Assembly: GCF_037975245.1 (NCBI RefSeq)
Contig: NC_092583.1
Location: forward strand, 16,764,764 to 16,828,763
Direction of reading: 5' to 3'
DNA from: Apostichopus japonicus
Taxonomy: Eukaryota > Echinodermata > Holothuroidea > Aspidochirotida > Stichopodidae
Length of the DNA stretch: 64,000 nt
Shown: positions 6,408 through 50,980 of the stretch, one piece after another
Position numbering within the stretch: position 1 is the stretch's first letter
How the letters are laid out: each line of letters starts with the position of its first letter
Translations under genes and position numbers: made by a program
Notes under the pieces: generated by a model
Database searches by the model: none
What the model was told of the DNA's origin: nothing
What the model saw: the letters and a program-made list of their open reading frames with translations, nothing else

Positions 6408-9400
6408 ATGCTTCTAAGAGTGTTTCAACGATGCGGAGTTTTAAACCGTCATACCACGTCCATCTTAAAAAGGAGACAAAGTGAATTTACAGTTTGTCGA
6501 GACGATGAGAAGAAAATTGACGTCATGAGAAGACTTATACAGGAGAGATCAACTGACAAGGTAACACAAAAGGATATTGAAGATTTGTTGAAGAGAATTT
6601 AATGGAGAAATTCAGATTAAATTATAATTATATTTTATGTTCTATTGCAATTCAGTTATATTGCACGTTTGTAAAGACACCGGTATTACCCAACCTTTAT
6701 TTCCATTATGAATAGCGAACCTTTTATCGAAACAATGCACGTTATGAATAACGAACCTTATGAACAATGACCCTTATGAATAGCGGACCTTATGAATATC
6801 GGGCAGACCCCCCCCCCCCCACATAATGTACCGCTGTTATCGACTAAACTAGGAGCGTGACAGAGCTTTTTTTGCCAGCCAGAATAAGTTTTAGGTAATG
6901 CAAGAAACAAATTAGCTTCGCAACAAACAGAAAGCATCAGCAGACACTAAGAAACACGATACTGCAAGGTGACCCCAACATTTAGACAGGTTATATAGAA
7001 CTTAATGTTTTATTAGTGTGTTATTGTGTATGACGTATGTGTATAGCTGAAATTTCACTTTCCGCCACTTATAGGTGTCCTTTAATATTTTACAGCATAC
7101 AGCTGGCAACGACGCCTTTTACGTCATGGATTTAGGGTATTTTGTTAAATCAGTAATGGAATGGAAACGACTGTTGCCTCGAGTCTACCCTTATTACGCG
7201 GTTAAGGCCAACCCTGACCCCGTTTTACTGCAATTCATGACGAAATTGAAATTTGGCTACGATTGCGCCAGTATGGTATGTTGTTTCTTATTTTATAACA
7301 CCCGCCCACCACCTCTCCATTTCATGTTTTTGTTAGTATTGAGTGTTACCTCAGCTCAAGAAAAGAATTAATTTTTTATATATCTTTCTTTGTATAGATT
7401 TCCTCAAACTATGATAGGAAACGTCTTTTGTCTCTTGCAGCAAACATGACCACCAAATTAAATAATATTTAAAAAAGGAACAGAATACAATTATAATAAT
7501 ATAAATAGAATATAAAATAAAAATTCCACGGTTATCGTGAAGTGGTATGAGTTCACACAGGCCTACGTCTTGGGAGCGTCAGTAAAGGTTCGTGTGCATG
7601 CATGATCTATTAACGTACGTATACGTTTATCCTCGTAAGAGTACATTGTGACAACGTAACATGACTATAGTCAGTAGACGTATCGAGGATAAAAAAGGTA
7701 ACACCAACATTACGAAGGAAGTACGTGAAGGTGTGCTAGGAATACTATGTGGGTGGATATTTAGGACAGCTTGACCATCCCCCTCTATTTATTATTTGTA
7801 CAATGTGAGATGACAAGTGTCATAATTCAACACGTAGAAAGCAATTGCAAGTTAAACCTTACCTACCACATTGCAGTTTATGGAACGACTTTACTGGTTT
7901 TTCCTTGTATATTTTGTCTGTATGTTTATTTTGTTTTGTTTGTTTGTTGTTTGCATCAGAATGAGATAAAGATGATAACGGGCAAGGGAAACCCCCCTAC
8001 AAGGATTATCTATGCAAACACCCGTAAACAACCCTCCCATTTGAGATATGCAGAGTCAGTCGGGGTAAAGTATACCACTGTTGACGACGAAGATGAACTT
8101 CACAAGATAAAGCAAAACACCCCAAATATGAGGTAAGAATATGCAAGTATAAAGCGGGTCAATCGAACGATGTTAGCTTCCATATATTACCGCAACCGGC
8201 CTACTAAGTTACAAACCCAGTGTTCGTCCACAACATGTATGCAAGTTCCTTATCTAATAACCGCGCCCGTATGCAAGTTCCCTATCTAATATGGTTCAAC
8301 GTCTCTCTATTGGATGAAACAGTCATATTACGGCGCGCCGCCTCTCTCTCTTGAAAATATCTGCATTCTCTGCAGGATTTGTAGATCCTTCATAACAACC
8401 TCAATGAAACTACTTAAAGGTGAAAAGGTGTAACCAGTTGTAAAAAATACTAATGTAAACCATGAAAAAGTTTTCTTTCTTTTATGCGTACTACATGTTA
8501 CTGTACGGTTATTTTTAAGGTTTTATTGCAAACGGGAAAATGGGAAAATCTATTTTATCAAAATGGTCTCAGAATATTTTCATTTTCATTTTCTACAGGC
8601 TTTTACTACGGTTATCTACGTTAAACTTTTCCGCATCTCTCTCAGAGGGAATGTGTAAAAAGTTTGGTTGTTCGCAACAAGAGGCTTACAACTTGCTAAA
8701 AACGGCCAGAGAGTTGGGACTGACGGTGAATGGTGTCAGGTAAAGCACCCAAAATATTAAATATATGTATTTGTATGTATAAAATGCGTAATATTGCATA
8801 TCAGCGTTGAACTTACATTATAGTTATCATATAATGTTCGTTCCCGTCATCCATGAGTACTTCATGCATATATTATCTTCCTTCATTTACATATATAAAT
8901 TCTTCCAGTTTAGTTTATAACCTGTTTAATTCTCTCCACAGTTTTCATGTAGGTTCTGGTTGCAGCGATCCTCATGCATTTTCAAAAGCTCTACAACTCG
9001 CAAAAGAAGTATTTATGAACGGGGCTGAACTAGGTTACAATATGAATATATTGGACATTGGTGGTGGATTCGCTTCTGAAACAACTAACAATTATGGAGT
9101 TGTTGCGTTTTCGTTGGTATGTAGTTTTGTTATATCATTGTGTATGTATGACGAGCAAAGTGGGAAAGTCACCAACCCCCCCCCACCTCTCTCTCTCCCA
9201 TCCTTCCATTCCCCACCACCTCCAGAAAGAGAGGTTCAAGGACACAAGATGCGTGAATGTGACCCCACACCCCGTGCTAACTGATATGCCCTCCGGAGTA
9301 AGTGAACTGAACCAACGTTTTAATTCGGAACAGCAGTCTTTAAAGTGGGGCAGTATTTATTTTATTAATGCCATCTTAACCTTTATTTTCTTTTGACAGA

Positions 9401-11233
9401 TGGCTGACGTCATCAGAAAAGCTTTGGATGAATACTTTCCTGAAGATAATGCTGTGCAGATTATCGCAGAGCCAGGAGCCTACTTTATGATGCCATCAAC
9501 CGATTTGGTCACAAATATCATTGGAACAAAAAATAACATTGGTAAACAATCCTTCGGCTTTCAAGAACATGAAGATGGACCGGAAATCGAATACTTTATT
9601 AATGATGGAAATCAGAGCTCTCTGTTTGTTTACAACTTAGAACCGGATCTTATACCGGTGGCAAAGGTATATATGCTTCATGATTCAAAAAAGCGACTGT
9701 GAAAACATTTCGCGACGCTGCATAACTTTTCAATTTGAAGCTGCTCGGCCTTTTGGCTAAGATCATGTGCTGTATCTATTCACTAACCAAGGTCGTGATC
9801 ACATGGTCAGTCTCGATGCAAAGGGACCTTGGATGAGAGCACTAAAATGAATTGCTCAATATAATATTGTTTCCTTTTGGTAAAAGTTAACTCTTTATGT
9901 AATGCACACATATCAAGTTGAGACTATATAGAGCATTCAGTTTGAAATGAGAAATGCTACTTCTCAACTTGATAATGAAAATATAACCCTTCCATTTGTT
10001 CAATTTAAACTGTAATTAATTAAGACTGTTTTACATGAGTTTGTAACATCGTTACGACTGTCAGCAAGGAAAATACTCCCTATATGGAGAGTTATTATAA
10101 ATCAACTTTATACAACTAAAATGTGTTAGATCATTATGAACACAATAGTTTCATCATGAGCATTTATCGTATGTGGCATATTTAATTTGCTGGTAAGTAA
10201 CGAGGTTTACGATATAAAATTCCTTATGCGAGACCTAGTTACTAAACTTTGCTGGTACGAGGACGGTACTGAGCATAGGCGTAGGAGCCCAGTTTGATTG
10301 GGGGGGGGGGGGGGCTGATAACGACTTAGTCGAAAAATATAACCAACATTTTTCGCGTTCAACATGTTAATGTACATATCACATAGGCATGCATAGGTTA
10401 TTACATCGCATGCCAATTAAATACAATCATTAACCTTGTTATCACCCTTCCATATTGGTTAGAAGTTGTGGGCAAGTAATGATAATAATAATATATATAT
10501 AAGTTTAACCATTGAAAAACACACTGGTGAATTACCGAATATATAGGTGCTGGTGCAATTCAAATCACCAGGCATTTCATTCACCGAAAATTCCTTCAAA
10601 CAGTTGTTTTTGCTTTCAGTAGGTGCCCGAAAAATTCTCAGCATATTGCCCGAATTTTCGCAAACATGTTTGGTTGAGGACTGCAGCCCCCCCCCCCCCC
10701 GCCTCCTACGCCTATGGTACTGAGTGAGAATGGGGTTGATAAACTAATATTACGAGACTTATATGATCGAAACCGTCACATCTTTAGAAGAGATATAGGA
10801 TCATGGGCGGCGATCATAGGTGAGGGGGACGTGTCCCCCCCAATATTTTAGGCTCCGCTTTGATAGTAATTCGCGAATAGTAATATATATATATATATAC
10901 AAAATATCACGAAGCGCTCAAACAATTTGGGGGATGAAGTTGCTTGCCCCCCCCCCCCCAATATTTGAAACAAATCACCGCCCCTCTATAGGATCACTCC
11001 AAATACATGTTTCTCACCCTTTTTTACAGCCAGTTTCAAAAGATTATTTTGATGCGCCAACATTTAAATGTAAAATTTGGGGTCAAACATGTGATGAAGA
11101 CGTCATTATGGAGGAATGTCAACTACCCAAAATGAAAACCGGCGATTGGATACATTTTACAGGTGAAGACTATATAATTACATTTAGAAAAAAGACATAT
11201 GATGGGGTGCAAACTGATTTCATTTATTATTGA
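6408..11233 (+). CDS. ODC1: Ornithine decarboxylase-like PLP enzyme, seven exons, complete
   Basis: Exons are 6408-6560, 7096-7275, 7960-8132, 8599-8739, 8942-9116, 9400-9666 and 11030-11233. All junctions are GT-AG and phases agree (0,0,2,2,0,0), giving 430 residues. It is a fold-III, PLP-dependent group IV decarboxylase; the family makes putrescine from ornithine as the first step of polyamine synthesis. Visible hallmarks are the PLP lysine in YYAVK (K88), DCAS (D107), R173, FHVGSGC (H218), LDIGGG (254-258), AEPG (E298) and WGQTCD (C384, D385). Oddities: the phosphate-binding Arg after EPG (human R277) is Ala301, and the substrate contact human D332 is Asn353. The protein stops at IYY, so it lacks the C-terminal antizyme/proteasome tail. 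The first 25 residues have no acidic residue and several Arg/Lys, which could be a mitochondrial presequence. It may be a paralogue with another substrate, or an antizyme-inhibitor-like pseudoenzyme. A candidate AATAAA lies at 11603-11608. Confidence 0.88.
9740..9782 (+). ncRNA. U2 snRNA-like 5' fragment (pseudogene or SINE head)
   Basis: The segment 'gctgctcggccttttggcta' and the following 'agatcatgtgctgtatctattc' match the conserved 5' end of U2 snRNA (stem-loop I and the start of the branch-site recognition region) at nearly every position. The branch-recognition GUAGUA reads GCTGTA here and similarity stops soon afterwards, so it cannot be a functional U2. It lies in intron 6 of the ODC-like gene, sense strand. 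Confidence 0.6.
10274..10716. mobile_element. hAT-type MITE with G/C runs at both ends, copy 1
   Basis: Termini are 'cataggcgtaggagcc' and its near-exact inverse 'gcctcctacgcctatg'. An 8-bp target-site duplication, GTACTGAG, flanks it (10266-10273 and 10717-10724), as hAT elements make. Inside each end is a G or C run of about 14-15 bases. A second copy is at 39395-39843. There is no coding capacity. It sits in intron 6 of the ODC-like gene. Confidence 0.85.
10804..10986. mobile_element. Short MITE just upstream of ODC-like exon 7
   Basis: Inverted ends (gggcggcgat at left; atcaccgccc at right) are flanked by a direct repeat TATAGGATCA at 10794-10803 and 10987-10996. The interior contains two C runs and a (TA)n stretch. 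The right end is 43 bp from the exon 7 start, so only about 33 bp of unique sequence hold the splice acceptor. The interior 'ctccgctttgatagtaattc' links it to the repeat modules at 17440 and 42350. Confidence 0.75.
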
Positions 11234-13436
11234 TCTGGATAGATTGGCTAACTTATCAACGACAAACATAAGTTTATGCTTGCTCCTCAGTATATTATAT
11301 CGACAAGAACCTTTCATAACAGCATTTCAAAGGTATATGTGTGTATGGGGGTAGGGGGGTTCAAATTTCCTTCGACTGATTCGGTAAGGGCCTGAACCTG
11401 TATGGAAGAACTAGAAGCAAATCAAGGTTTTTATAAAAGTAGTGGTGCTTCTCTGTGGTCAGCAACCCGACTTCGATGTAGGGTGTCTGGGGGTCCTCTC
11501 ACATAAGGAAAATTAGACGCCCAATAATACATTCCGAAGCATACTATAGATTATAAATTAGGTCTACATATAAGTAGCTAGTCTAAACGCAAGATTTGTG
11601 GTAATAAATAATTTTCTGGTTTTTAATTTTTCCCGGCTAAATGCAATAAATTCCTCGATTGAACCATTTTACCCGACTGACGATGGGATGTGTCCATTTG
11701 ATACATTAATTATTGAAATATTTTCTTATTTTCTTTTCATATAAAGATAAGGGGTCATACTCGTCTGTATATTGCACAAATTTCAATGGTTTCACAAATA
11801 GACCAACATGCCGCTATATTTCCAAGTCTATGCTGTAAGTGGTTATTGATTTCTTAATAATTATGCACCAGAAGGGGGGAAAGGGAATACTTGTGTCTTA
11901 TACCAAGTTGCGGTTGCATGATTCGCAATATTTCCCAAACATATCATTTTATATTTTCACCATTATCAGTTAAGAAATTATCAAATGTCCGCACGTTATA
12001 CTTTTTTTAAGGATATATATATATATATATACAAATATCCTGATATTGGTGTGTGTCAAATATAAACCACCACCTTATTTAAACACCAAAAGGGAATTAA
12101 CAGAACCAATTTATTGACCATGTATTTAAGGTGGTGATCTATAATTTAATTTACTAAATAACACTTTTAAGCAAGATTTCTTGCAGGTTTTGAATACGAA
12201 TAAAGTCTTTCAATGTATATTAGGAAATAATACCACCTTACGTAGTCCTGATATTTTTTTCTATTTTTTAACACCTTCAGAACACGTTTGGAAACTTTGA
12301 TAAGAGACGGCGTTTTTGAACATCTTCCGAATCACCTCGGTTTATACAAGGTCGTTGACAGCAAATAGGAAGATTTCGATTGAAAAACTATATTATAATT
12401 TAGAGAGCCTACCCATATGCATGTACGGTATGTTAAATCTCGGAGACATTTCAGGAATTTGGAATTTCATTTAAATTTTCAGAGTGGCTCCATAATTGTA
12501 CCAAAAAAAAAGGGATGTAGTCACTGGGCAGGTAAAGCCGACCCTGCATGCAGGCCGATAGGGGGTTTGCATGGGATCGCCTACGCAGGTGTAAACGTAT
12601 AAGGATGTGATCATAACTAATTATTAATTTTTGTTTAGGACTATAAAAGATTAAAATAATCTGATGGTAACATACATAAACAGTAAAGACGCCCAACGTC
12701 GAAATATAAACGCAACCAAATCGTAGCAGGTTTATTCGCCTGACAAGTTAGATATAAACTTCAATAGTTTCAACAAGAGTATAAATAAACACTTTATATT
12801 AATTTTGTTGAACAAAAACCATTTTGTATTGGAATAACTGTTTGAAAACTTGATCAAACACTGGTATAACGACATATCAGAGAAACATGAAATCGAATTA
12901 AAGTGTGAAACTATATCTATTCAGTATAAACTAGGCCGCCTATAGGCAAAAATAGAAACGATGGAAAGTGGTATGTACATAAAGATTCAACGCAACGTTT
13001 ACCACTGACCTGGCGGTCGGCTTCAAAGAAATTATTAACGTACTTTGAAAATCAATAAATGATAAATATTATTATAATGCCATTTTTATATAGGCTACTC
13101 GTAGTACTAGTATTATAATTATTGTGTATCAATTTGCATGTTGAACTAGCCAAGCCTACGTTCATTGGTCTTTTCCTTGTAACCTATTCACGCTTTACAA
13201 AGGGTTATTGAGGATTGTACTCACATGATGATAAAGGTCTGAGTGACGTAACTGTCTGGTTAAGATCCAAGAAGAAACATCAGGAGCACGAACCCGGGTC
13301 GAACGAAAAAACATCAAATATTTACAAACATCACACTGATAGATCAACACAATTTCCTCCTTTCGACATAGGCCAAGGGGCTACAACTGTTGGAACTATA
13401 ACAGTTATACGATCGAGCATCTGACAATTCAGCCTC

Positions 13437-18537: not shown

Positions 18538-19919
18538 ATGAAACCAAACATGTCTGTCAAAAAAGGAAAAGTATGGTCACATAACAATACAAAAGGTTGT
18601 TTTATAAATACAAATCATGTTTTGCTTTTAGCCATATCAATTAAGGTAATCTGTTTAAATGTTAATTGGTTTTTAATTTACGCATCCGACAAAATGAGAG
18701 TTTTTGCGAAGTCAGAACAGCAAGGCAGATTCGATGTTTGGAATTTTCAAAGTGAAACTCATCAAACACGTACCTCATCTTTCCATAACGAGCGCCAGGT
18801 ACACAGTGATATTATCAATGGGAGGAATGTCAATTTGACGGATCTGGAAATATTAAATGATGCAAAAGAAGAGTGCCCTATTGTTACTCGTCGCGGAAGA
18901 AAAACGGACCAGCAGCCGCCTGTGGCCAAAATATCGACAAAGCTAAGGAATTCTTCTCATTTTCCACGTACCAGTTACATTCCATCAGATGCGATACAAC
19001 GATCGTGCAAGTTTCTTCGCACTTTGTCGTCGACAGATATTGAATCATTTCGAAATCATGTCGTAAACTTTGAAAAGACATTTGGAAAATCAGTTTCGGC
19101 TGTTCCAGAATACCTACGTTACCTGTTATCGTTGAATATTTTCTCTACTATGGGGTATGAGCAAAAGTTACCGATCGCATTGATAATAGGCTCTAAAAAA
19201 GGGGGGGGGGGGGGGTTACAACTGCATTTAGTAGCACGACGGAATTCGAGAAGGGTTTGGTCTATTGTAAATCAAAGTTACCATTTAGCTACAAGAACGA
19301 AATAAATTTGGAAAAATCACCATCGTATTTTCCGACCGAGTCAGTTCCAAAAAGAATCAAGGAAAGTCTTGGGGGAAAAGTAAAATTTATTATTTGCGTG
19401 AGAGACCCCGTAGAGCGGGCGATATCGGACTTTCATCACACGTCATATTTAAGAATGAGGCACAGAGACATGTGGGGAAGAACTAGGGAGTCGGAGGGCG
19501 AAAGATTCGCCAGCGTATTCATTGACGAAAATGGAAATCTAAAATCGAATCAAACTGTAATTACGGAAAGCCTTTACGCTGTCCATCTCCGCCATTGGTT
19601 GCAGTATTTTACTCTTGATCAGTTTTTGATTATCCATGTAGAGGATATTCGAAGAAATTTATCAAAAGTAATGACAGAAGTCGAAGCATTTTTAAATATT
19701 GAACCTTTCTTTAAGTTTGAAATGTTTAAATACCACAGACGATCCTGTGTTAAATTACCAACTTCGGATAACGCTTATTGCGCGCCAATTTGGGGAACAG
19801 AACTTGCACATCCTCGGCTGAATAAGACGGTTACCCGTATGCTACGCGATTATTACAGACCGTTTAACCGAGAATTTGAAAGCATGACGAATAGAACATT
19901 TTCGTGGACATATTTGTAG
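18538..19919 (+). pseudogene. Heparan sulfate 3-O-sulfotransferase-like gene, frameshifted at a G15 run
   Basis: Intronless and Golgi type II in layout: a short N-terminal tail, a membrane anchor at about residues 27-49, a stem, then a sulfotransferase domain. The first frame (from 18538) carries the PAPS 5'-phosphosulfate loop LPIALIIGSKKGG (about 212-223) and then runs out of frame after a 15-G run at 19201-19215, ending at 19305. The domain resumes in another frame: LPFSY, EKSPSYF, the 3'-phosphate loop VRDPVERAISD (about 19398), LYAVHLRHWL, AHPRLN and DYYRPFN, stopping at 19919. These are HS3ST-family landmarks. Compared with the family, about 20 residues are missing just after the loop, including the catalytic Glu of the ENEVHFFD-type motif. 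So even without the frameshift the enzyme should be inactive. An assembly error in the G run could explain the frameshift, but not easily the deletion. Confidence 0.8.
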
Positions 19920-23262: not shown

Positions 23263-23938
23263 TTAATCTATACTATGGACACGTAACTAGACTCCAACTC
23301 GGACTTGTGACTCCTGCTGAGGCCTTAGGTTTCTCTTTCAGGTGGAGTTACAGTAATGTTGTTTTTACTGCAGTAAGAAATAATTCTTCCTGTAATAATT
23401 AATGACATTCCCACTGCGACTGCGACAGCAAAAAATTCCTGATATACTGTAGGTGTTATGCTCAGAAGTGTTTATGAAGTAATATAGGCCTACCTAATCA
23501 TGATTTCCCCAACTCGACTCTTACTCCAGCAAAAAATATCCTGTAAAAAGGGAGATGTATGCTTCTCAAAAGCATTTATGAAGTAATATACTGTATCTAT
23601 AATGGTTTCACCATGGCCTGCAACTCCAGCAAAAAATAAGCTGTCCGAATAGTGCAGGGTATTCTGTATTTATTCCACATTTTTCTTTTAATATTTTATT
23701 TTCAAAATGCACCAAACCCTGTTACTACACTATAACTTTCTCATATCAAGCTGATATTTTACGCATTCAGAGTTGGACAAAGCAATTATCCCTTATATGC
23801 AAGTGGCCAAATCTGTCCAGGCCATCCAACTCTGTCTATTTCTTCATTGTATTACTACTGCACATGTTGATATCATTAAGTCTTACGATTGTATTCGTTT
23901 TTGGTTTTTCTATCTCAGGTGTGACTTAAAGAGCCAAC

Positions 23939-24898
23939 ATGGGGTATGACATCCAACGGTTTGAAGGGGATGTGGATGAGGAGCTCATGTGCCCGATATG
24001 TCATCAAGTCTTGGAGGATCCTTTGCAGGTACCTCAATGTGAACATGCATTCTGTTCGGGTTGTATAAAAGAATGGCTGGCTCGTAATGACTCTTGTCCG
24101 GTTGACAGAACAGCCGTGACGAGCGAACAACTTAAACCTGTACCCAGAATCCTTCGCAATCTGTTAGCACGACTGAAAATATCCTGTAGCAATAAAAACC
24201 ATGGTTGCAATGCTGTGGTTAAATTAGATGCATTGAGACAACACCTTGAAGAATGTATACACAACCCTAAGAGGCCCATAGAGTGTGAAGATGGTTGCGG
24301 ACTAGTTATTCCCAAGGATGAATTAGGAAACCATAACTGTGTGAGAGAGTTGAGAGCCATTGTCCAGCAGCATCAATCTAGGGCATGCCGATCGGATGCT
24401 ATGATGGCTAACATGAAACAGCAAATAGAGGACCTGAAATCAGAATTGAACATGTTGAAAGAATACGTGAGGGCGATGCGTGTTGCCACTCCAAACCCTA
24501 ACCCTTCCCTTCGGGCCATCGAAGATGAGTTTGAGCACAACGAGATAGTCCGCTGGGTCAACTCTGTCCCTATTGCCCGTGTTACCCGATGGGGTGGAAT
24601 GATATCCACTCCAGATGCGGTCCTCCAGGCTGTCATCAAACGGTCCCTCATCGAGTGCGGCTGTCCAAGCCATATCTTAAATGACCTGATGGAGAACGCC
24701 CATGAACGTAATTGGCCTCCTGGATTGAACACACTAGAAACGAGGCAAATGAATAGACATAATTATGAGCAATATGTCACCCGAAGAATACCTGGTAAGC
24801 AAGCTGTTCTTGTCATGTATTGCGAGAATGCACACATGGGTGATGTTCTGATCGTCGAGCCTGGCATTGTCATGATATTTGCACATGGCATTGAATAA
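23939..24898 (+). CDS. RNF41: E3 ubiquitin ligase RNF41/NRDP1, coding exon complete
   Basis: The 319-residue product matches NRDP1 in length and order of domains. A C3HC4 RING covers about residues 18-57 (CPIC, CEHAFCSGC, CPVD). A Cys/His zinc-binding TRAF-type region follows (about 80-135; CEDGCGLVIPKDELGNHNC), then a coiled coil (about 136-175), then the USP8-binding domain with the hallmark stretches RVTRWGGMISTPDAVLQAV, NAHERNWP, LETRQMNR and MIFAHG. In other animals NRDP1 promotes ubiquitination and turnover of ErbB3 and BRUCE in the cytoplasm and is stabilised by USP8; that role is inferred here. The whole CDS lies in one exon that begins after a splice acceptor at 23917-23918. An in-frame TAA at 23927-23929 fixes the start at 23939. 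At least one 5' non-coding exon must lie upstream. Nothing is broken. The 3' UTR may extend to AATAAA at 26736-26745. Confidence 0.95.
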   Translation: MGYDIQRFEGDVDEELMCPICHQVLEDPLQVPQCEHAFCSGCIKEWLARNDSCPVDRTAVTSEQLKPVPRILRNLLARLKISCSNKNHGCNAVVKLDALRQHLEECIHNPKRPIECEDGCGLVIPKDELGNHNCVRELRAIVQQHQSRACRSDAMMANMKQQIEDLKSELNMLKEYVRAMRVATPNPNPSLRAIEDEFEHNEIVRWVNSVPIARVTRWGGMISTPDAVLQAVIKRSLIECGCPSHILNDLMENAHERNWPPGLNTLETRQMNRHNYEQYVTRRIPGKQAVLVMYCENAHMGDVLIVEPGIVMIFAHGIE

Positions 24899-31616: not shown

Positions 31617-34600
31617 CTATAACCCACCCGCGTATTTACATCCTTTCTCGTCAACTCCATCTTTACAGTCTTGTGTGCGGTCACAGAGGAATGATTTGAG
31701 ACGACAAACACCATCACACGAAAACATCTCGAATTCTTCACACTCAGTCCTGGTTCTGTCTGCAAGTAGATATACAATTATGTACCAAACAGAAAAGACA
31801 AAACAAAGTGGTTCAATTGAATTATAAGAAAAGGATAAAATACCATCAAGAAGGCTTTAACAAATTTTGAAGGAAATAAAAGAAACGTTTGGGTAGAGCG
31901 GTGTGCTTGAATCATTGATTGACCTTAGAAAGACAAACCTGTGTGTATATTGTTGAGCTGGAGAGCTCAGTTATAACGGTGCATATATCTTGTAGTTTTC
32001 GTCGCGGAGGTTGCTTGTCTCAACCATTAAAACAAACAGAGACTCCCTTGTTTTTTTAATCCTAGTGTAACTGCGATACATTTTGGAGAATACTATGCGA
32101 GACAACTATCGCACTCTTTAAGTTGTATGTTTTATTCAGTGATTGAACACGTTCTGTGAGTTAAATAATTCAGTAATACTATAATGGAAGTACTTCATGA
32201 CACAAGTTTATCGATACTAAGGCGTTCTCACCATAAAACATTACAATTCAGGCCGGATAAATGGAATTTTGGGCAAATAAGGTATTCTAATCAGATGCAG
32301 TCATTCCGGGAAAATACTCTATAGTCTAAAATACTCCTTTTTGATATCTTGATATTATTTCCTCATTGTACGTTACACTCTAGAACTGGTACAGAACTGA
32401 AAAGATAAACCCTTTAGCTCTGTCTAGTAATGTCTAAGCTTATGCCCTCTTCTTCGACGGTATGGGGTGGGGGGGGGGGGGGCTGGGTGGACCAAACGTT
32501 CACCGACATCTTAATATGAACAAACTTATTAGGATATTGATATCAAGTTTGGTGGATTAATCAATCATGGGCAAAATTCAAGATGTATAAATCAAAAATT
32601 GTTCATGTAAAAAATTCACTGCACTTGCGCAGTGTATAAATATTTACCACAATTAAGTTCGTCTGATTGATCCCTACATTGTATGAAGCCATTGCAGAAT
32701 AATTTCTCCTTCAGACATTGGAGGCCATCAGCGCATTTACGATAACCACCTGGACATTTATTTTGACATCTGATAATCAAAAGAGGGGAAAGAATTTTTA
32801 AAATTCATATAAAGGAAGTCACGTTCTTAGCGTGAGAACGTAATTTTTTTTATAAAAAACACCTTTCAAAGATTCGGGACTCTTTTCTGGTCTTAGTTTT
32901 GTGACCAGAGACCAGAGTATAATCATATCATGTAGAGAATTATCCTAGTATGAAATACAACTTTAGTTTATTATCACTTGCACTTTTATTATAAAACTGT
33001 TCTAATGTGTATTATAAGGTCAAAGTTGATTATCCTAACCACTGCATCGATTTTTATGAATTGTTCCGAGGTCATAATGAACTTTCTTTCCATTTGATCT
33101 TATCTGATTATGAAATCAAAATATCTGTCTGCTAATATGATACTTCCTCGTCGCCTAGTTGTTTGCACTTCGGACGAGAAGTAAAACTTTGTGTCACGTT
33201 GACCAAAGAGTATCAGTAATTTGTTATAGCAGGGAGTTGTTATGGAAACTCCCTGGTTATAGGTCCCTTGCTCTGAACAAGGCTAGATAAGATTCACATA
33301 TAATGTGACAACATAATGAATAGCCATATAGCTAAGCAATCAACGTGGTTAGAATTATCCAATAGCATCCATTTATCGAGTTATTACCCGTTCAGTTCAT
33401 TAAGACAAAATATTTTGTGTACGACAAATTTTGTATCAGGTTTCCTGGCCTATTCTTGCAATCCTCGTTCCATAATTCCTAATTCCTGATGCCATTTTGA
33501 TGAAGTGAACTTATAGATTATGGTTTCAGGTAACTTATCTCTCCTAACCCGATTGGATTTGGTTTCACCAGATTGTAGCATATTTACCACAAAAGGCAAA
33601 AACCAGTCGTTTTTATTAACTACACGGAGTTTTGAACCAATCAAGAGGTAAAGAGGTAATGGTGATAAGAAGTTTGTACCTACCTCGCCTTCCTTTCATC
33701 CTCTCCATTGATGCAGTCCTTGTTGCCATCACAGAGGTCTTCTGGTAACAACTTGACTCGAAAACCCCCCGGGGACATACATCTTGACAAAACTGGTAGT
33801 GCCTCGTTATCCCTAGATTTTGTATCGTCATATTTAGCCTCGTCTCCCTGAGTATTTTCTGATTCTTCCGGTCTATCTTCATCTCCCCCTCTTAGTGTTT
33901 CCATCTGTTTCTCAATGTTATCTATTCCTCCTGTTCCACTCATCTCCTCTTCAACTTGACCTTTAACCTCTTCTTCCTCTGTTTCATCTTCATCAGTGTT
34001 TTGTTCATCACCTTCCTCCTGGTAACCTGGACGATCGTCTGAAATTTCTCTCTGTTCGTTCTCATTTTGGCTTTGTTCTCGTTCAGCTTCTTCTTCTTCT
34101 ACTTCTTCTGTATCTTCTTCATCTTCATCTTCTTCTTTCTCCTGATTCTGTTTTTGTCCCTCATACTCCACCAGGAGTTGTATTTCCAGGTCTTTCATGT
34201 ATCCTTCGTACTCATTCAAGAAACCATGATTCAATTTTGTGAAGGAAATTATATCTTCACCATAACCACTTCCTTCTACTGTCGGAATAATTGTTTCTCC
34301 GCTGCCAGATCCATCCCCGCTGATATCCATAACATCTATCGGAAGATTAGTCGTAATTTCATCATCTGTATGATTCTCCTCCGTCCCTGGTAACATGAAT
34401 TTAGGAACAAGGTCCATTGTGTCCTCCAGGGCATCAACCAAACCAGAAGTCAACTTTAAATTCTCCAATTGTTTGTCCAAGTCGTTTAAAATCCCTTCCT
34501 CTTCTTCTGTTCCTGTCTTAATATTTTGATCACGGATCTCCGTCAATTGGTTTAAATCGGTGGCCATTTTAGAACTCTCGTGTTGTGATGTCATTTCCTT

Positions 34601-35403
34601 TAGCTGAATCTGTAATCTAAGATTATCTAAATCAAGTTCTTCGTTTGTACTTAAAGGTGAGGTATGGTCAAGTTCTTCGTTCGTACTTAAAGGTGAGGTA
34701 TGATCTGTTAAAATCTTCAGAAGGTTCTCTTCGCGACGTGAAGATGCAGATGACTCGTTAGTCACTTGTCGACGTCGTCTCCTCGCTCGTACCTTTTCGT
34801 TCAAAAATCGTCCATTTTGGCTCAAATGAGGTCCGTTTCTTTCCAAGAGTTCAAGAAAGTGGCCATTTCTAACCGTCATTTTAGCTCGAGAGTTCCTTAG
34901 ACGGCCGACTCGTTTTGTGAAATGTCCATCTGTGAATTGAATAATTAATGGCATAATGGTGCATACAATGTAAAATATCTGTACTAAATTCAGCAGTCAT
35001 ATCAAAAGACTATTAGGAAAGGTTACTTCACACTCCCAAGAAGGTACAAATTTTAATCTATTTAACCTTTTCTGTGTAATCTGGCATAAATCATTCAGTA
35101 AAGACATAATTTTCCAGCTTTATTTATATATATATTTATGCATCTGGCAATCACCAAGCTCGGACGGGGTTAGCAATGCATATACACTGGATATATAAGC
35201 CACCAAACTTTCTTTTTATCATTATGTGTGTGCTACTATGTGTATGCATCCTTTAATTATCATTCCAAATCTTCTTTTTCCTATATATGATATCAACGAT
35301 TTGATTCGTTGTTGTTATACTCACTGTTGTTTGATCCAGTTACCATGGAAACGGAGATGAGAGTGACCAAGAGGAGAAACGACTGGACAGTGATACTAGC
35401 CAT
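31617..35403 (-). CDS. Secreted acidic LDL-receptor class A protein, proteoglycan-like; four exons
   Basis: Exons on the minus strand are 35403-35325, 34929-33684, 32769-32648 and 31759-31617. GT-AG junctions and phases (1,2,1) agree, giving 529 residues. Residues 1-23 form a signal peptide (the upstream ATG at 35478 would spoil it). A basic segment around 74-81 (RARRRRRQ) fits a furin-type site. A 12-residue unit DHTSPLSTNEEL is repeated in tandem at about 102-125. Two acidic Ser-Gly sites follow (DGSGSGE near 234, EGSGYGED near 247), the pattern used for glycosaminoglycan attachment. A long Glu-rich disordered region (about 290-400) precedes three C-terminal LDLa modules. The first module keeps only four of six cysteines; the second (CPGGYRKC to DELNC) and third (CEEFEMFSC to DEKGC) have all six and the acidic calcium-binding end. 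No membrane segment is seen. No known orthologue comes to mind; an extracellular matrix or coelomic-fluid role is inference. Confidence 0.85.
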
Positions 35404-42425: not shown

Positions 42426-42508
42426 GGTACGATGGCCGAGTGGTTAAGGCGTTGGACTTAAGTTCCAATGGACGAATATCCGCGTGGGTTCGAACCCCAC
42501 TCGTACCA
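42426..42508 (+). tRNA. tRNA-Leu (anticodon UAA), intact
   Basis: The acceptor stem GGTACGA pairs with TCGTACC, with discriminator A. The D arm is GGCCGAGTGGTTAAGGC, as in class II leucine tRNAs. The anticodon stem TTGGA pairs with TCCAA around loop CTTAAGT, giving anticodon TAA. The variable arm is long, and the T arm is GTGGG-TTCGAAC-CCCAC. There is no intron. At 83 nt it reads the UUA codon. It lies 10 bp after the right edge of the transposon nest. Confidence 0.96.
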
Positions 42509-45784: not shown

Positions 45785-48151
45785 ATCAAGGTTCAATTGT
45801 TGCGTTTAATAAAATTTGAAATGTTTCTTACCTGACCATCTTTTGAGAGGCTCTCAATTTGATTTGATGAAACGACCATCTTTTAAACAATACATAGATG
45901 AGGAGGCCAACGACGAGAGCCGCAAGGAGAACACAGTAAAGAGGAACAATGCTGACCCCGGGATGATATGGGTGGCCAGTGGGGTCTGATGGTGGCGTCA
46001 GTGAAATGTCACTTGATGGAGGCGCTGTTGAGAAATTGGAATGGATCTGTATTAGTATGACTGTGGAAACGCTGGCTTAGTGATGTAGGTAGTAAAAACA
46101 TTTTTTTATTCAGTTTCATGTGTAAACTTGGGATGGCTATTAAAAAGATAAAATTAAATGAATTTTGTTGATTATAGTATTAAATAGTTGCCATATACCA
46201 TGAAAATTATCTCAAAGAATGTCGGGGTAACAAAACCGGGAATAGGAAGATTTACTACAATAATTTATAACTATAGCCTTATTAGTTATCGAAATTATAC
46301 GAAGAGAACACTTTCTCACTGAAAATATGAACCATCACTATTGATAGAACATGGATTTATATCAAGTACAAGTAAAACAAATTTATTTTGCTTTGTGTCA
46401 TCTAGCAAGCAAATTCGAAACAACATGAGTCATTGGAGGAAAATGAAAATAATTCGCATTACATAGTTTAAATAGAAGGCTTTTTGCCTCTAAGTACCTC
46501 TCGCCCGGCGTAAGCTAATATGCTGCTACAAATACACAACGTAAGGTATATATTCGGTGCTCTACTTTATCTTGCGGATGCATAATTCAATCAAGAGTCA
46601 GACGAAGATTAACATTGATCCGCATATATACATCACCAAAATCAAAATGATAAAGTTTCGACCAAGATTTATGGAGGTAAAAAACATAAACCATGAACGT
46701 TTCGCCCAGTGAAAGGTCTTAAATCTAGACTTAACATTTTTAAGTGTTTGTGGTTCTACGTTTATGTGTTATCGTAAAATGTTGGTTTTTCGGGAATAAA
46801 ATTTACAACGACAAAAAGAATCAAAGCGTGTATATGTAGTAGCTATCTTGAGTGAATTGAACGAGGGTGTTGGCAGGTTGACAGACATATAAACAAACAG
46901 GGAGGAAAGAGAGACAGAGAGAAGAGAGAGGAGAGAGTTATGACACATCGTACAGTTGTATCTTTCAAGTTTTGGCATTAATTCTGGAAGGCATAATCAG
47001 AGAAAGTATATTTAATCGTAAAATGTCGCGTATGAAATGTACGTAGTGAATGTTAGGGAGTTATTACTTGTTTGTATAACACAGACGCTGATCTAAAGTC
47101 AACAACATGATTCTAAAACATTGCAGATGTCACCGAATGTTGTTTTCGTGACGGAGAGTTTCTGGAAGTTGGCGAGCAAGGAACAATGTAACATACGAAC
47201 CATACTATGTTGTCGAAGTTTATAGTGAGTAAAGTTAGTTAAATCACCGTAAACGAAATTTCAATTCAACAATCTATGCAGCCTCATTGTTTTGTTGTTT
47301 CTTTGTTTTCAATCGACAAAAGGGAAAGTATTTTAGGATTGACTATTATCGATTTTGAGAAATACACGGTAGACAGGTTTCCTCGCCCAACGCTTAATCA
47401 TATGATTCTAAATGACATGCAAAGCGCACATTTATTTCCAAACCACCTTTTCATTATTTGACAAGAAACTCGAGTAGTCAAATAAATGAATTAAATTATT
47501 TGGTGATGATAGTATTGAGAATTGACCAAAATCAACACACAACTTCGTTAATGTAAAAAGAAAACAACATTTTCGAAAACAAAGTTAATTTGTTTACTCA
47601 CGTGAACAAACAGTATCTGAATACTTTGTGCAGTTTTCTACTATGAATGTTCCTCTCCGACATCTTGTACAAGGTTTACACACGGTTGCCCTGGTAACGA
47701 CATCTGAATAAGTCTTTAATGGGACACATTCTTCACATATTATATCTTCCAAAAATGTACATGGCTGTATGGTTCCAAAACCTGGCGGACAAACACTGCA
47801 TTGGCTGCAGACGCCCCCATTCTTTCGAAAAAGTCCCATTTTACACCGGCAACTCGAATCATGTGTTGAATTGCATTTACTAATAGTCACTTGATCTGAA
47901 TTGCACTCTGTACATGGTCGGCAAGGGTTGTTACCCCACTCATCTGAAAAAGTCCTGTTCTGCCGACAAGGTTTACATTGGATGTTTGTAACACCACAAA
48001 GAGAAATAGCCCCCTCTCCAGGGGGACATGCATCACAACAGTCACCGCTGTCTGTATACGTGTTACTTCTACACTGAGGTGCTACTGTCGTCGACCGAAC
48101 TACCTGTATCATCTGTGATGAAAATAATATGAAAAAAAGAAGATAAATCAT
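44391..48151 (-). CDS. NGFR: p75-type neurotrophin receptor (TNFRSF16), four exons
   Basis: Minus-strand exons are 48151-47602, 46024-45832, 45268-45141 and 44701-44391. GT-AG junctions and phases (1,2,1) agree, giving 393 residues (vertebrate p75NTR about 427). Order: signal peptide (about 1-20), four TNFR cysteine-rich domains (about 27-183), a short Ser/Pro/Thr stalk, one membrane helix (about 206-229), a linker of about 75 residues, and a C-terminal death domain (about 305-385; DWRALCTQLNF, HPV-type LNPVHQMFHKW, NALNEALMSIQRKDLANLI). The helix keeps the p75NTR-specific membrane cysteine (PLYC, C213), the AxxxG dimer motif (ALVVG) and the FKRW exit. As a family, p75 binds neurotrophins and signals through death-domain adaptors; ligands here are unknown. 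Start caveat: the first 13 codons overlap a perfect polypyrimidine-CAG acceptor, so a separate upstream signal-peptide exon is possible. Confidence 0.92.
45692..45780. repeat. (TA)n microsatellite, about 44 units, in a p75NTR intron
   Basis: An uninterrupted 89-bp (AT)n tract lies about 50 bp inside the intron that follows the transmembrane exon. It is long enough to be unstable or to extrude a cruciform. Confidence 0.95.
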
Positions 48152-50980
48152 GTCTGAAATTTTTTATATCATTTGTACAAATATGGAAAAATCATTACAA
48201 AGAGACGATTTAATGAGATTTAAAATTTTAGTCATTAAATCATATTCAGCCATCGATAATGATGATAACAAGCAAAGTACATTCTGTGAATAACCGAAAT
48301 TTACACCAAAAAAAAGATAGTTTAAATGGGAAGGGCAGAGTTTCTGGTATATAACGTGGCCTGGGGCGCGAGAAAATACTCCGATTGCGTCGCATAAAAT
48401 ATATCTAAGACAAAGCGTCTGTGTCACCTTCGCACATTTTCCATTTTCACGAAATGTACCATTATGTATTAGGTACGTTATACCGTTATCCGTGACGTCA
48501 AATTTAATAAATATATAGTTCGTTTAATATATATGCTAGTTGTGTAAACCGTTATTGCTTTTACATAAACTATATTATACACTTAATCAATCTTGAAACA
48601 ATATCCCAAAGTAATTTTGGCGTCCGTTAGATTAACACTACATGAGTCAAGAGTTGGGATGGATTTCAATCTGGTGGTAAATTACGCTGCGGCTTAGTAA
48701 ACACCGCGTGGTTTGTACATGTACTGTCAACTCAATTACAGCGGAGAAGAGAACGTCTGGAGAGATGTGCTAACGTTGAACAACACTCCTTGGATCATGA
48801 TACCATAAAGCAACCAAATATGACGTACTGGGCACTATGGTCTTTGAGGGAGCGGGCGGGTATTATTAGGTGGGTCGGTGGGTGGGTGTTCTGATCATAA
48901 TGAGCAGGGGTAAAGTTTCTCCGATTTTTTCGAATGCTTGTTTGTATACATTGTGGTGAAGTTTTTCACAATGCTGACATGTTGCCTCAGACTGTGTAAA
49001 CTATTACGCTAGATTGCTGGTACCCACTCCTTAATCTCCCCTTCCCTTACCCCCCCCCCTCAACCCGCAAATCCTTTAGCCTTGTATTGCATTCCTATCA
49101 GTGGTATGTCGAGTACTTTTCACATGAGAACGTAACCAAACATAAACTGATATGTTAAGTAAATTGTAATAAACTTAATTGATACATTTACTAACTTAAT
49201 TGTCTGATATTTATTTCTTTAGTTTCTTAGTACACACATAAGTCTTTAAGCTCAGCTGGACTACGAAAACAACGTACCGGTACGGTGAACTGGCAGCTTT
49301 GTGGTTTGCGTAAACGGCTTGAGTAAGTTTGTCAATTCTGACACAACGGGAGCCGAGGGTGCACAAATTTGTTACAGTTTCTATTTCATCATTGCCGTTA
49401 AATCATGTGCTTAGTCTTCAAGCCACGGGGTGTTTAAATTGTGACGACAGACACAGCGTGTCTTTTATATAGTCTTTTGATAACACGGAGAAATCTCGAG
49501 GTATTAGAAAACGAACGATGTTTGTAAATATTAAACGTTTGGTAAAGGAAAAGGAGAATTCAATGGTCGAGACAGTTGTACAGTAATATTTATAAGTTAA
49601 TTAGTTAGGTAAAGTCTCCGACACGTTCATTTACCGCATCGTTTGATCTTGTGGTGTGGTCTTAGTTAACGCGGGATAAATCAACGCATAAACTTCTCTC
49701 CGATCCACAAAGTAACATTGATTACTGTCTACTAATATTTCACATAAATGTTTATAACATACTTCCTGTCAGAATACTTAAAGGACCACTGGTTAGTGGA
49801 TTCAATTTCAATACGTAGAACATCCGATTTTTCAGCGACTTTTTTTTTATCAAAAAACAAATTATCGGTACTTTTTATTTGCAAAAGTTCAACAACAACG
49901 AGGTATGATCGCTGGCATTACTTACAAATTTTCGATGCATATTATGAAAGAGAAAGTTGCAAACATATTCTGCTAAGCTATTTGCCTGTGTTTATTGACT
50001 ACTACCAAACAGAAATGTGTAAGCAGGTCATCGAAACTTTTAGATTCGACCGGAAATCGTTAATTTACTTGCTGTGTATCTGGAGTGAGTCAACTCCTTA
50101 ACTGTACGTATGTGATGTGGATATATGATTGCATCACACACCGATCACTTTGCATTGATACCTGTACTTGAGGTAGTTACAAGTCAACGGCCTTTTGAAA
50201 CTTTTCAGTGATAGGTGACATTAATGTTCTTAGATTTAAGATTCCCAAAGGTGTCGCTTACAGCTGTTGAGTGAGTCGTGATGTTATTCACCATATGCTT
50301 TAATAATGCGTTATTAGAATCCACACTTGGTTGGGGAGAAAAGGTGTTTACTATGGTTTTATCGCATGTACTAGACTTGTCCAAGTCGTAAAACCGGCAA
50401 AGGCTATGAAAAAGACGGCAGATGTACGATAAATACCGTGCTCGTTTATTGCAACATAGACAAGATAAGGGTAACATAAACAGACTGAATTTGATTTACT
50501 TGGAATTTTTTTTGTAACCTTATTCCATTTCTCATCAGATTTATACCAATTATTTGCTCTGTTTTTAAGCGTTACTTTTTTGGCGAGAGAAATATAACTG
50601 GAAACGCAACCGTGAATGAAAATTGTATCTACATCTTGATTAGAACTGATACTTAAAATTATCAGTTATCAATTTATTTATCAGAAAATACCAGAAACAC
50701 ATTGACAACATGGCAGCCCTCCGGCACGACGTTGATATCCTAAATAAATGCAGGCGGAGTTAGATTTTCCTTAGATATCAAGTCCTAGGTTGGTTTGCAA
50801 GTTATGTTGTAAAGAAACCTTCCATTTCATATTATGCAGGTATCTCCTTTCTAAAAGGACAATTGGAAACGGGACAAACCATCAATTTTAATTTATTTTA
50901 TATAGGTGAGACAGGCCATGCAATGTTAACATGCAACGTATACACGTGGTCAGTATAATAAGCAAATCAATATACCTTCC
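48152..50980. other. No gene recognised
   Basis: This is upstream of the p75NTR gene and may hold its promoter and a first non-coding or signal exon, which I could not identify. The 117-residue open frame at 49748-50101 has no domain, splice context or recognisable similarity. Confidence 0.4.

Follow-up and report, generated by a model that had tools for sequence, protein, structure and literature searches.

We describe a gene in a 64,000-nucleotide stretch of the sea cucumber Apostichopus japonicus genome (NC_092583.1, positions 16,764,764 to 16,828,763; hereafter the window), which lies on the + strand from position 6408 and encodes, in a corrected model of nine exons, a protein of 465 amino acids. 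The gene is a genuine relative of ornithine decarboxylase (ODC, EC 4.1.1.17), a fold type III decarboxylase using pyridoxal phosphate (PLP), in which key residues of the active site have been lost. Judging from sequence comparison, we think that its product is probably a pseudoenzyme with the ODC fold, one of four in this genome, and that the folded protein has been kept for binding partners.

Membership in the family is clear. The corrected protein carries the two domains expected of a fold type III decarboxylase (Pfam PF02784, E value 1.7e-69, and PF00278, 5.8e-11), and its best PDB matches are human ODC chains, followed by Trypanosoma brucei ODC, AZIN1, and diaminopimelate and arginine decarboxylases. 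Because both domains are present and human ODC chains rank at the top, the protein belongs to the eukaryotic ODC/AZIN group, with a likeness far beyond chance; identity to human ODC is 39% over 379 aligned residues. The correction of the gene model extended the match to the human ODC chain from residues 43-430 (3.2e-80) to 43-434 (1.5e-84), raised it from 273.2 to 287.7 bits, and lengthened coverage of the C-terminal Pfam domain from positions 1-91 to 1-95, its last position.

Four altered paralogs beside one canonical ODC

A PF02784 profile search of the genome (671,581,487 bases, 35 contigs; match counts are lower bounds) yielded at least 16 exon-level matches, which group into at least five loci: the window gene on contig C23 (3 matches), one locus on C9 (4), and three on C6 (3 each). 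These five comprise one canonical ODC (C9) and four ODC-like paralogs, namely the window gene and C6a, C6b, and C6c, the latter three encoding 434, 421, and 434 amino acids, respectively, all with open frames and intact splice sites. C6a (C6:16749710-16762503) and C6b share the same orientation, while C6c (C6:18384009-18390370) lies about 1.6 Mb away in the opposite one; C6a and C6c are a recent duplicate pair with 90.8% protein identity. The model of the canonical ODC is partial (381 amino acids), and its exon 6 is interrupted by an additional intron whose donor is weak; its first and last exons were not found, and no candidate stood out when the last one was sought.

To compare active sites, we tabulated 21 positions, i.e., the 20 critical ones given in PMC5518511 (this and the other papers cited by accession are cited from excerpts) plus Y323, in human numbering. 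The ODC-type reference set of 16 sequences joined 13 putative bacterial ODCs to three eukaryotic ones, from human, T. brucei, and the C9 locus. Among the 15 bacterial or archaeal loci obtained, a fragment (L036) and a distant archaeal relative (L038, which differs at positions 88, 323, 332, and 397) were left out. All 21 positions are identical in all 16 ODC-type sequences, and the remaining proteins compare as follows.

Canonical ODC (C9, also in the reference set): 0 of 21 changed
Window protein: 3 of 21 changed (R277A, Y323Q, D332 replaced)
C6b: 4 of 21 changed (R277L, Y323F, D332, D361A)
C6a: 6 of 21 changed (K169N, S200L, R277T, Y323F, D332, D361A)
C6c: 6 of 21 changed (S200V, R277T, Y323F, D332, C360L, D361A)
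AZIN1: 5 of 21 changed (D88A, R154H, R277S, D332E, Y389D)

Across the four paralogs, R277 and Y323 are changed in every case, as is D332 in the alignment used; D361 is changed in three, S200 in two, and K169 and C360 in one each, C6c being the only paralog without the catalytic Cys360. All four keep K69, D88, E94, R154, G171, H197, G235-237, E274, D364, G387, Y389, and F397. The arrangement described for inactive ODC-homologous forms (PMC5574924 and PMC5518511), altered copies beside an unaltered gene, is what we find here, with 3 to 6 changes per paralog next to a gene with none.

The set of critical residues that characterizes an active ODC is incomplete in the window protein, R277 being Ala and D332 being replaced as aligned, and the additional position Y323 is Gln; the same alignment gives Asn for V322. 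The original prediction, made from the window sequence by eye, had reported a retained PLP lysine and Cys-Asp pair and an Ala at residue 301 in place of R277, and the alignments bear out both statements (K69, C360, and D361 are present). It had also placed Asn353 at D332. That D332 is not conserved holds as aligned; which residue lies opposite it varies from one alignment to another, namely Asn353 in two phmmer alignments, Pro356 in two MAFFT alignments, and Glu355 in an ungapped hand count. For the window protein taken alone, the apparent loss of D332 is not beyond doubt, because a two-residue insertion could bring Asp357 opposite this position; C6a and C6c have no Asp in the corresponding stretch. 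A loss of R154, suspected by eye, is not seen in the alignment, where this residue is kept.

A corrected 3' end of the gene

The window gene had been read as an intact seven-exon model of 430 residues (Ala at 301, Asn at 353) ending at the tripeptide IYY. Exons 1 to 6 and the start of exon 7 stand, with AG and GT splice sites and consistent phases. Exon 7, however, most likely ends at a donor at 11162, and two further exons follow (^ marks the splice site).

6408..6560, + strand, exon 1: protein ...RSTDK, phase 0 out; residues 22-48 match exon 1 of paralog C6b with 56% identity
7096..7275, + strand, exon 2: carries the PLP lysine K69 (K88 of the window protein) and the D88 equivalent
7960..8132, + strand, exon 3: carries E94 and the region of the antizyme-binding element (human 117-140)
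8599..8739, + strand, exon 4: carries the equivalents of R154, K169, and G171
8942..9116, + strand, exon 5: carries the equivalents of H197, S200, and G235-237
9400..9666, + strand, exon 6: E274 kept, R277 changed to Ala301, Y323 to Gln, D332 replaced
11030..11162, + strand, exon 7 with corrected end: carries C360, D361, and D364; donor ACAG^GTGAAG, phase 1 out
11163..11233, + strand, start of intron 7: taken as coding in the earlier reading (EDYIITF...DFIYY and stop)
11747..11834, + strand, exon 8, previously missed: DKGSYSSVYCTNFNGFTNRPTCRYISKSM(L); carries G387, Y389, and F397; acceptor TATAAAG^AT, donor CT^GTAAGT
12281..12368, + strand, exon 9, previously missed: TRLETLIRDGVFEHLPNHLGLYKVVDSK and a TAG stop; acceptor CACCTTCAG^A, phase right

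The three C6 paralogs and the canonical gene on C9 all have their exon 7 donor where the window gene has it, and in the same phase. Exon 7 of the C6 genes closes after '...W(L/F)(Y/F)FT' ('...WIHFT' in the window) with the donor ACAG^GT in phase 1, and the exon 8 that follows shows D(M/Q)G(A/S)YS...FNGF, a motif of ODC; when exon 8 of C6a was used as a tblastn query, it matched the window at 11746-11832 (E value 4.4e-5, 48%). At the apparent stop after exon 8, each of the four ODC-like genes has a GTAAGT donor in phase 2, leading to a ninth exon in the right phase that reads RLDELVSGGAFGEINFCV in C6a and C6c, TRLETLIRDGVFEHLPNHLGLYKVVDSK in the window gene, and a short KLLYKLM in C6b. Exon 9 of the window gene is less certain than exon 8, because its likeness to the paralog exon (RLDELVSGGAF) was judged by eye and a tblastn search using the tail of C6a missed it. 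All four ODC-like genes have nine exons at matching positions, with intron phases 0,0,2,2,0,0,1,2, and the recovered exons of the canonical ODC fit this pattern of phases.

As the end of this protein, IYY was rejected once exons 8 and 9 had been located, and it most likely reflects read-through of intron 7. The tail of the earlier reading resembles human ODC at 6 of 24 residues, a value reached by 48 of 20,000 shuffles of the tail in a comparison that was chosen after the likeness had been noticed. This likeness explains the misreading; an alternative transcript ending via IYY is possible, the shuffle result being rarer than one would like for a coincidence. The corrected C terminus regains G387, Y389, and F397, so that a loss of G387 and Y389, which had been deduced from the wrong exon 7 tail, falls away.

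The proposal that the protein lacks the C-terminal tail and is thereby released from turnover control fails as stated, since the end on which it was built was most likely misread. The corrected protein continues for 34 residues beyond the position of human Y407, where IYY had been placed, as compared to 54 residues in human ODC. With the human chain (2on3) being 461 residues long, the window tail reaches, in length only, the start of segment 441-461; in a Xenopus ODC paralog, the last 21 residues are required for antizyme-driven degradation (PMC6738921). The correction of the gene model removes the truncation that underlay part of the earlier finding. At the other end of the protein, a mitochondrial presequence found no support: the first 28 residues have a net charge of +5, but their helical moment was matched by 727 of 2,000 shuffles.

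Intron 6 also contains a sequence resembling U2 small nuclear RNA (9737-9927, + strand) with a well-kept 5' end. It scores 30.1 bits against an Rfam gathering score of 46 and is probably a U2 pseudogene.

Descent and constraint of the ODC-like clade

A phylogeny, which the original prediction had proposed as a check, unites the four ODC-like proteins in one clade (support 100/100) that joins the eukaryotic ODC/AZIN side of the tree (again 100/100). ODC and AZIN1 are set apart from this clade with 92/90, which is below the star mark of the tool. A single clade of the paralogs with AZIN1 was rejected by the approximately unbiased (AU) test (p 0.0197, in a tree without AZIN2). Because of this rejection, we do not count the paralogs as relatives of AZIN1 by descent, and take their likeness to it as convergent. 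A clade of the paralogs with the canonical ODC of the same genome was not rejected (AU p 0.0922), and origins from an echinoderm ODC or earlier are both compatible with the data.

Between the window gene and its paralogs, the proportion of synonymous differences is saturated (pS 0.79-0.81; 0.79 against C6b), while that of nonsynonymous differences is 0.33-0.34 (0.33 against C6b), and protein identity is 48-51% despite the saturation of silent sites. In the recent pair C6a and C6c, 1,242 of 1,305 exon bases are identical (95.2%; 4.8% differ) without any indel, compared to 1,842 of 2,078 aligned bases in introns 3-8 (88.6%; 11.4% differ); intron 1 gave a poor alignment (54.7%), and intron 2, being too long, was left out. 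Over the long term, the clade is thus under constraint at the protein level, but targeted loss of the active site leaves no statistical sign. The original prediction that the gene is not decayed and is probably not an ordinary ODC is supported by the occurrence of the same losses in three paralogs whose frames are open, by common intron phases, and by protein-level constraint.

What the protein may be kept for

We envisage that the losses at R277, Y323, and D332 occurred once, in the ancestor of the four paralogs. With R277A, V322N, Y323Q, and a replaced D332, PLP would be held weakly or not at all and ornithine decarboxylation would be very low or absent; the dimer might be weakened as well, though Y389 and D134 are kept. 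The likeliest reason for its retention would be binding: it would either compete with ODC for antizyme, like vertebrate AZIN1, or associate with the canonical ODC and reduce or stabilize that enzyme's activity. We consider it quite likely that the window protein is inactive on ornithine, and all four paralogs are probable pseudoenzymes. That the window protein should be an antizyme decoy specifically is a more tentative suggestion, about which we are rather doubtful.

Mutants of human ODC give a measure of what such changes may do. There, R277 is ion-paired with D332 of the same subunit, and both residues belong to the dimer interface; kcat per min is 225 in the wild type, 21 in R277S, 177 in D332E, 4.5 in V322D, and not detectable in Y389D (PMC4139326). 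V322D also weakens the dimer about 6-fold. A quadruple mutant with AZIN1 residues at 277, 331, 332, and 389 has a dimer dissociation constant of 15.9 uM versus 0.10 and is still mostly dimeric; with V322D and D134A added, it becomes mostly monomeric (PMC4139326).

Several observations weigh against a pseudoenzyme kept for binding. Of the four paralogs, the window protein has the fewest changes, with K69, D88, E94, R154, H197, S200, E274, C360, D361, and Y389 remaining, and its catalytic positions are not changed in excess (2 of the 20 listed ones versus 8 of 42 other invariant positions, p 0.48). In human ODC, R277S keeps about 9% of kcat and D332E 79% (PMC4139326), so weak activity is possible. 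The dN/dS ratio of C6a and C6c is 0.66 and does not differ significantly from 1 (Fisher test, p 0.16), and their intron 6 alone, at 94.7%, is as similar as the exons. Finally, only one of seven human antizyme-contact residues (E136) is kept in the window protein. This last element does not discriminate, because the canonical ODC of the same genome likewise keeps only E136.

An enzyme that still holds PLP without R277 and acts on a substrate other than ornithine would fit the retention of K69, H197, E274, G235-237, C360, D361, and Y389 in the window protein. Mouse ODCrp (gm853), which keeps 20 of 20 residues and is inactive on ornithine, lysine, and arginine (PMC5518511), illustrates that relatives with this fold can abandon ornithine; having lost none of the 20, however, it is unlike the sea cucumber paralogs. 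Moreover, the arginine that contacts the PLP phosphate is changed in all four of these, D361 in three, and C360 in one, which reads as a loss of chemistry across the clade, and we regard a surviving enzyme as unlikely. The original prediction had left a different substrate and a noncatalytic regulator side by side; the regulator is the better half, the substrate being weaker because the changes at R277, D332, and Y323 hit the architecture of the cofactor phosphate site and of the dimer and active site, in addition to the losses of D361 and C360 among the paralogs.

Alternatively, the protein may be a partner of canonical ODC, forming heterodimers at the shared active-site interface that lower or shield ODC activity without antizyme being involved. 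Heterodimer inhibition has been proposed for inactive ODC paralogs (Ivanov 2010, via PMC5574924), and the dimer-relevant residues D134, K169, K294, and D364 are kept in the window protein. Near the interface, in contrast, V322 and Y323 have become Asn and Gln, at a site where V322D loosens the human dimer, as given above. According to the excerpt of PMC5518511, mouse ODCrp does not heterodimerize with ODC. A function of this kind strikes us as about as improbable as a surviving enzyme. Less probable again is an old, separate clade outside the eukaryotic ODC and AZIN sequences compared, expanded to four genes in this sea cucumber, which would have kept the Schiff-base lysine and the pocket for the pyridine ring and lost the phosphate clamp. 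Its pocket would have taken on a role other than ornithine decarboxylation (e.g., as a sensor or carrier of a vitamer or small amine), making its members more than antizyme decoys. Least probable of all is that constraint on the gene has relaxed and that it is decaying. In the window protein, 10 of the 62 positions at which all 16 ODC-type sequences agree are changed, and the dN/dS of C6a and C6c points the same way, but frames are open and splice sites intact in all four genes, protein identity has held despite saturated silent sites, and the exons of the recent pair, free of coding indels, have diverged less than half as much as introns 3-8. Overall, the earlier interpretation is partly supported: sensible but unproven.

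Relation to known ODC paralogs

Compared to ODC proper, the window protein keeps K69, H197, E274, C360, D361, and Y389 and differs at R277, Y323, and the replaced D332, while a separate gene with all 21 positions intact exists on C9. AZIN1 (PDB 3btn, 4zgz) is similar in having the ODC fold with R277 and D332 replaced and K69 and C360 kept, but lacks D88, R154, and Y389, all present in the window protein, and retains Y323, which the window protein has lost. Planarians offer another parallel. Six ODC homologs are described in Dugesia japonica, with Schmidtea mediterranea also covered (PMC5574924), and in ODC3, ODC5, and ODC6, R277 is changed to T, A, and K, respectively, while another ODC has every listed residue (PMC5574924, Table 2). 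The window protein differs from these in keeping both C360, lost as well in ODC5 of S. mediterranea, and K69, lost in ODC6. Putrescine did not rescue the RNA interference phenotype of ODC5 and ODC6 (PMC5574924). Mouse ODCrp shares with the window protein its relation to ODC and the lack of activity on ornithine, which for the window protein is a prediction; the difference is that all 20 listed catalytic residues are kept in the mouse protein (PMC5518511).

A search of the open-access literature with limited terms brought up no title dealing with ODC-like paralogs or with antizyme inhibitors in any echinoderm, sea cucumbers included. In a preprint on the genome of Holothuria glaberrima (PMC13228809), the terms ornithine decarboxylase, ODC, antizyme, and decarboxylase are all absent from the main text. 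A gene annotated as ornithine decarboxylase is among 18 differentially expressed in three regenerating species, of which a sea cucumber may be one; the excerpt does not specify the copy (PMC5764997).

Other features in the window

The remainder of the window holds a tRNA gene and several open reading frames (ORFs).

19197-19916, + strand: ORF with a sulfotransferase domain (PF00685, 1.3e-14)
23930-24895, + strand: single open frame of 322 codons, RNF41/NRDP1-like (USP8_interact, 1.3e-79, and RING)
33683-34996, - strand: Glu-rich ORF of 438 codons without a Pfam match at E 0.01; contains a 36-base repeat in two copies and, at the C terminus, a stretch that by eye resembles LDL-receptor class A
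42426-42508, + strand: tRNA-Leu (TAA), Rfam 64.4 bits
44394-44852 and 47597-48163, - strand: Death-domain ORF and TNFR cysteine-rich ORF, perhaps one TNF-receptor-like gene

Implications for the ODC family

Inactive ODC paralogs, including planarian forms with R277 changed to A, T, or K, are already known and have arisen repeatedly (Ivanov et al. 2010, as cited in PMC5518511 and PMC5574924), and the sea cucumber family adds a probable case to them. Its graded series of 3, 4, 6, and 6 changes out of 21 beside an intact ODC makes the order in which contacts to cofactor and substrate are lost readable. As a four-gene family that is probably of echinoderm origin, it joins a recurrent pattern in which copies of ODC alter their catalytic residues and yet keep the fold.

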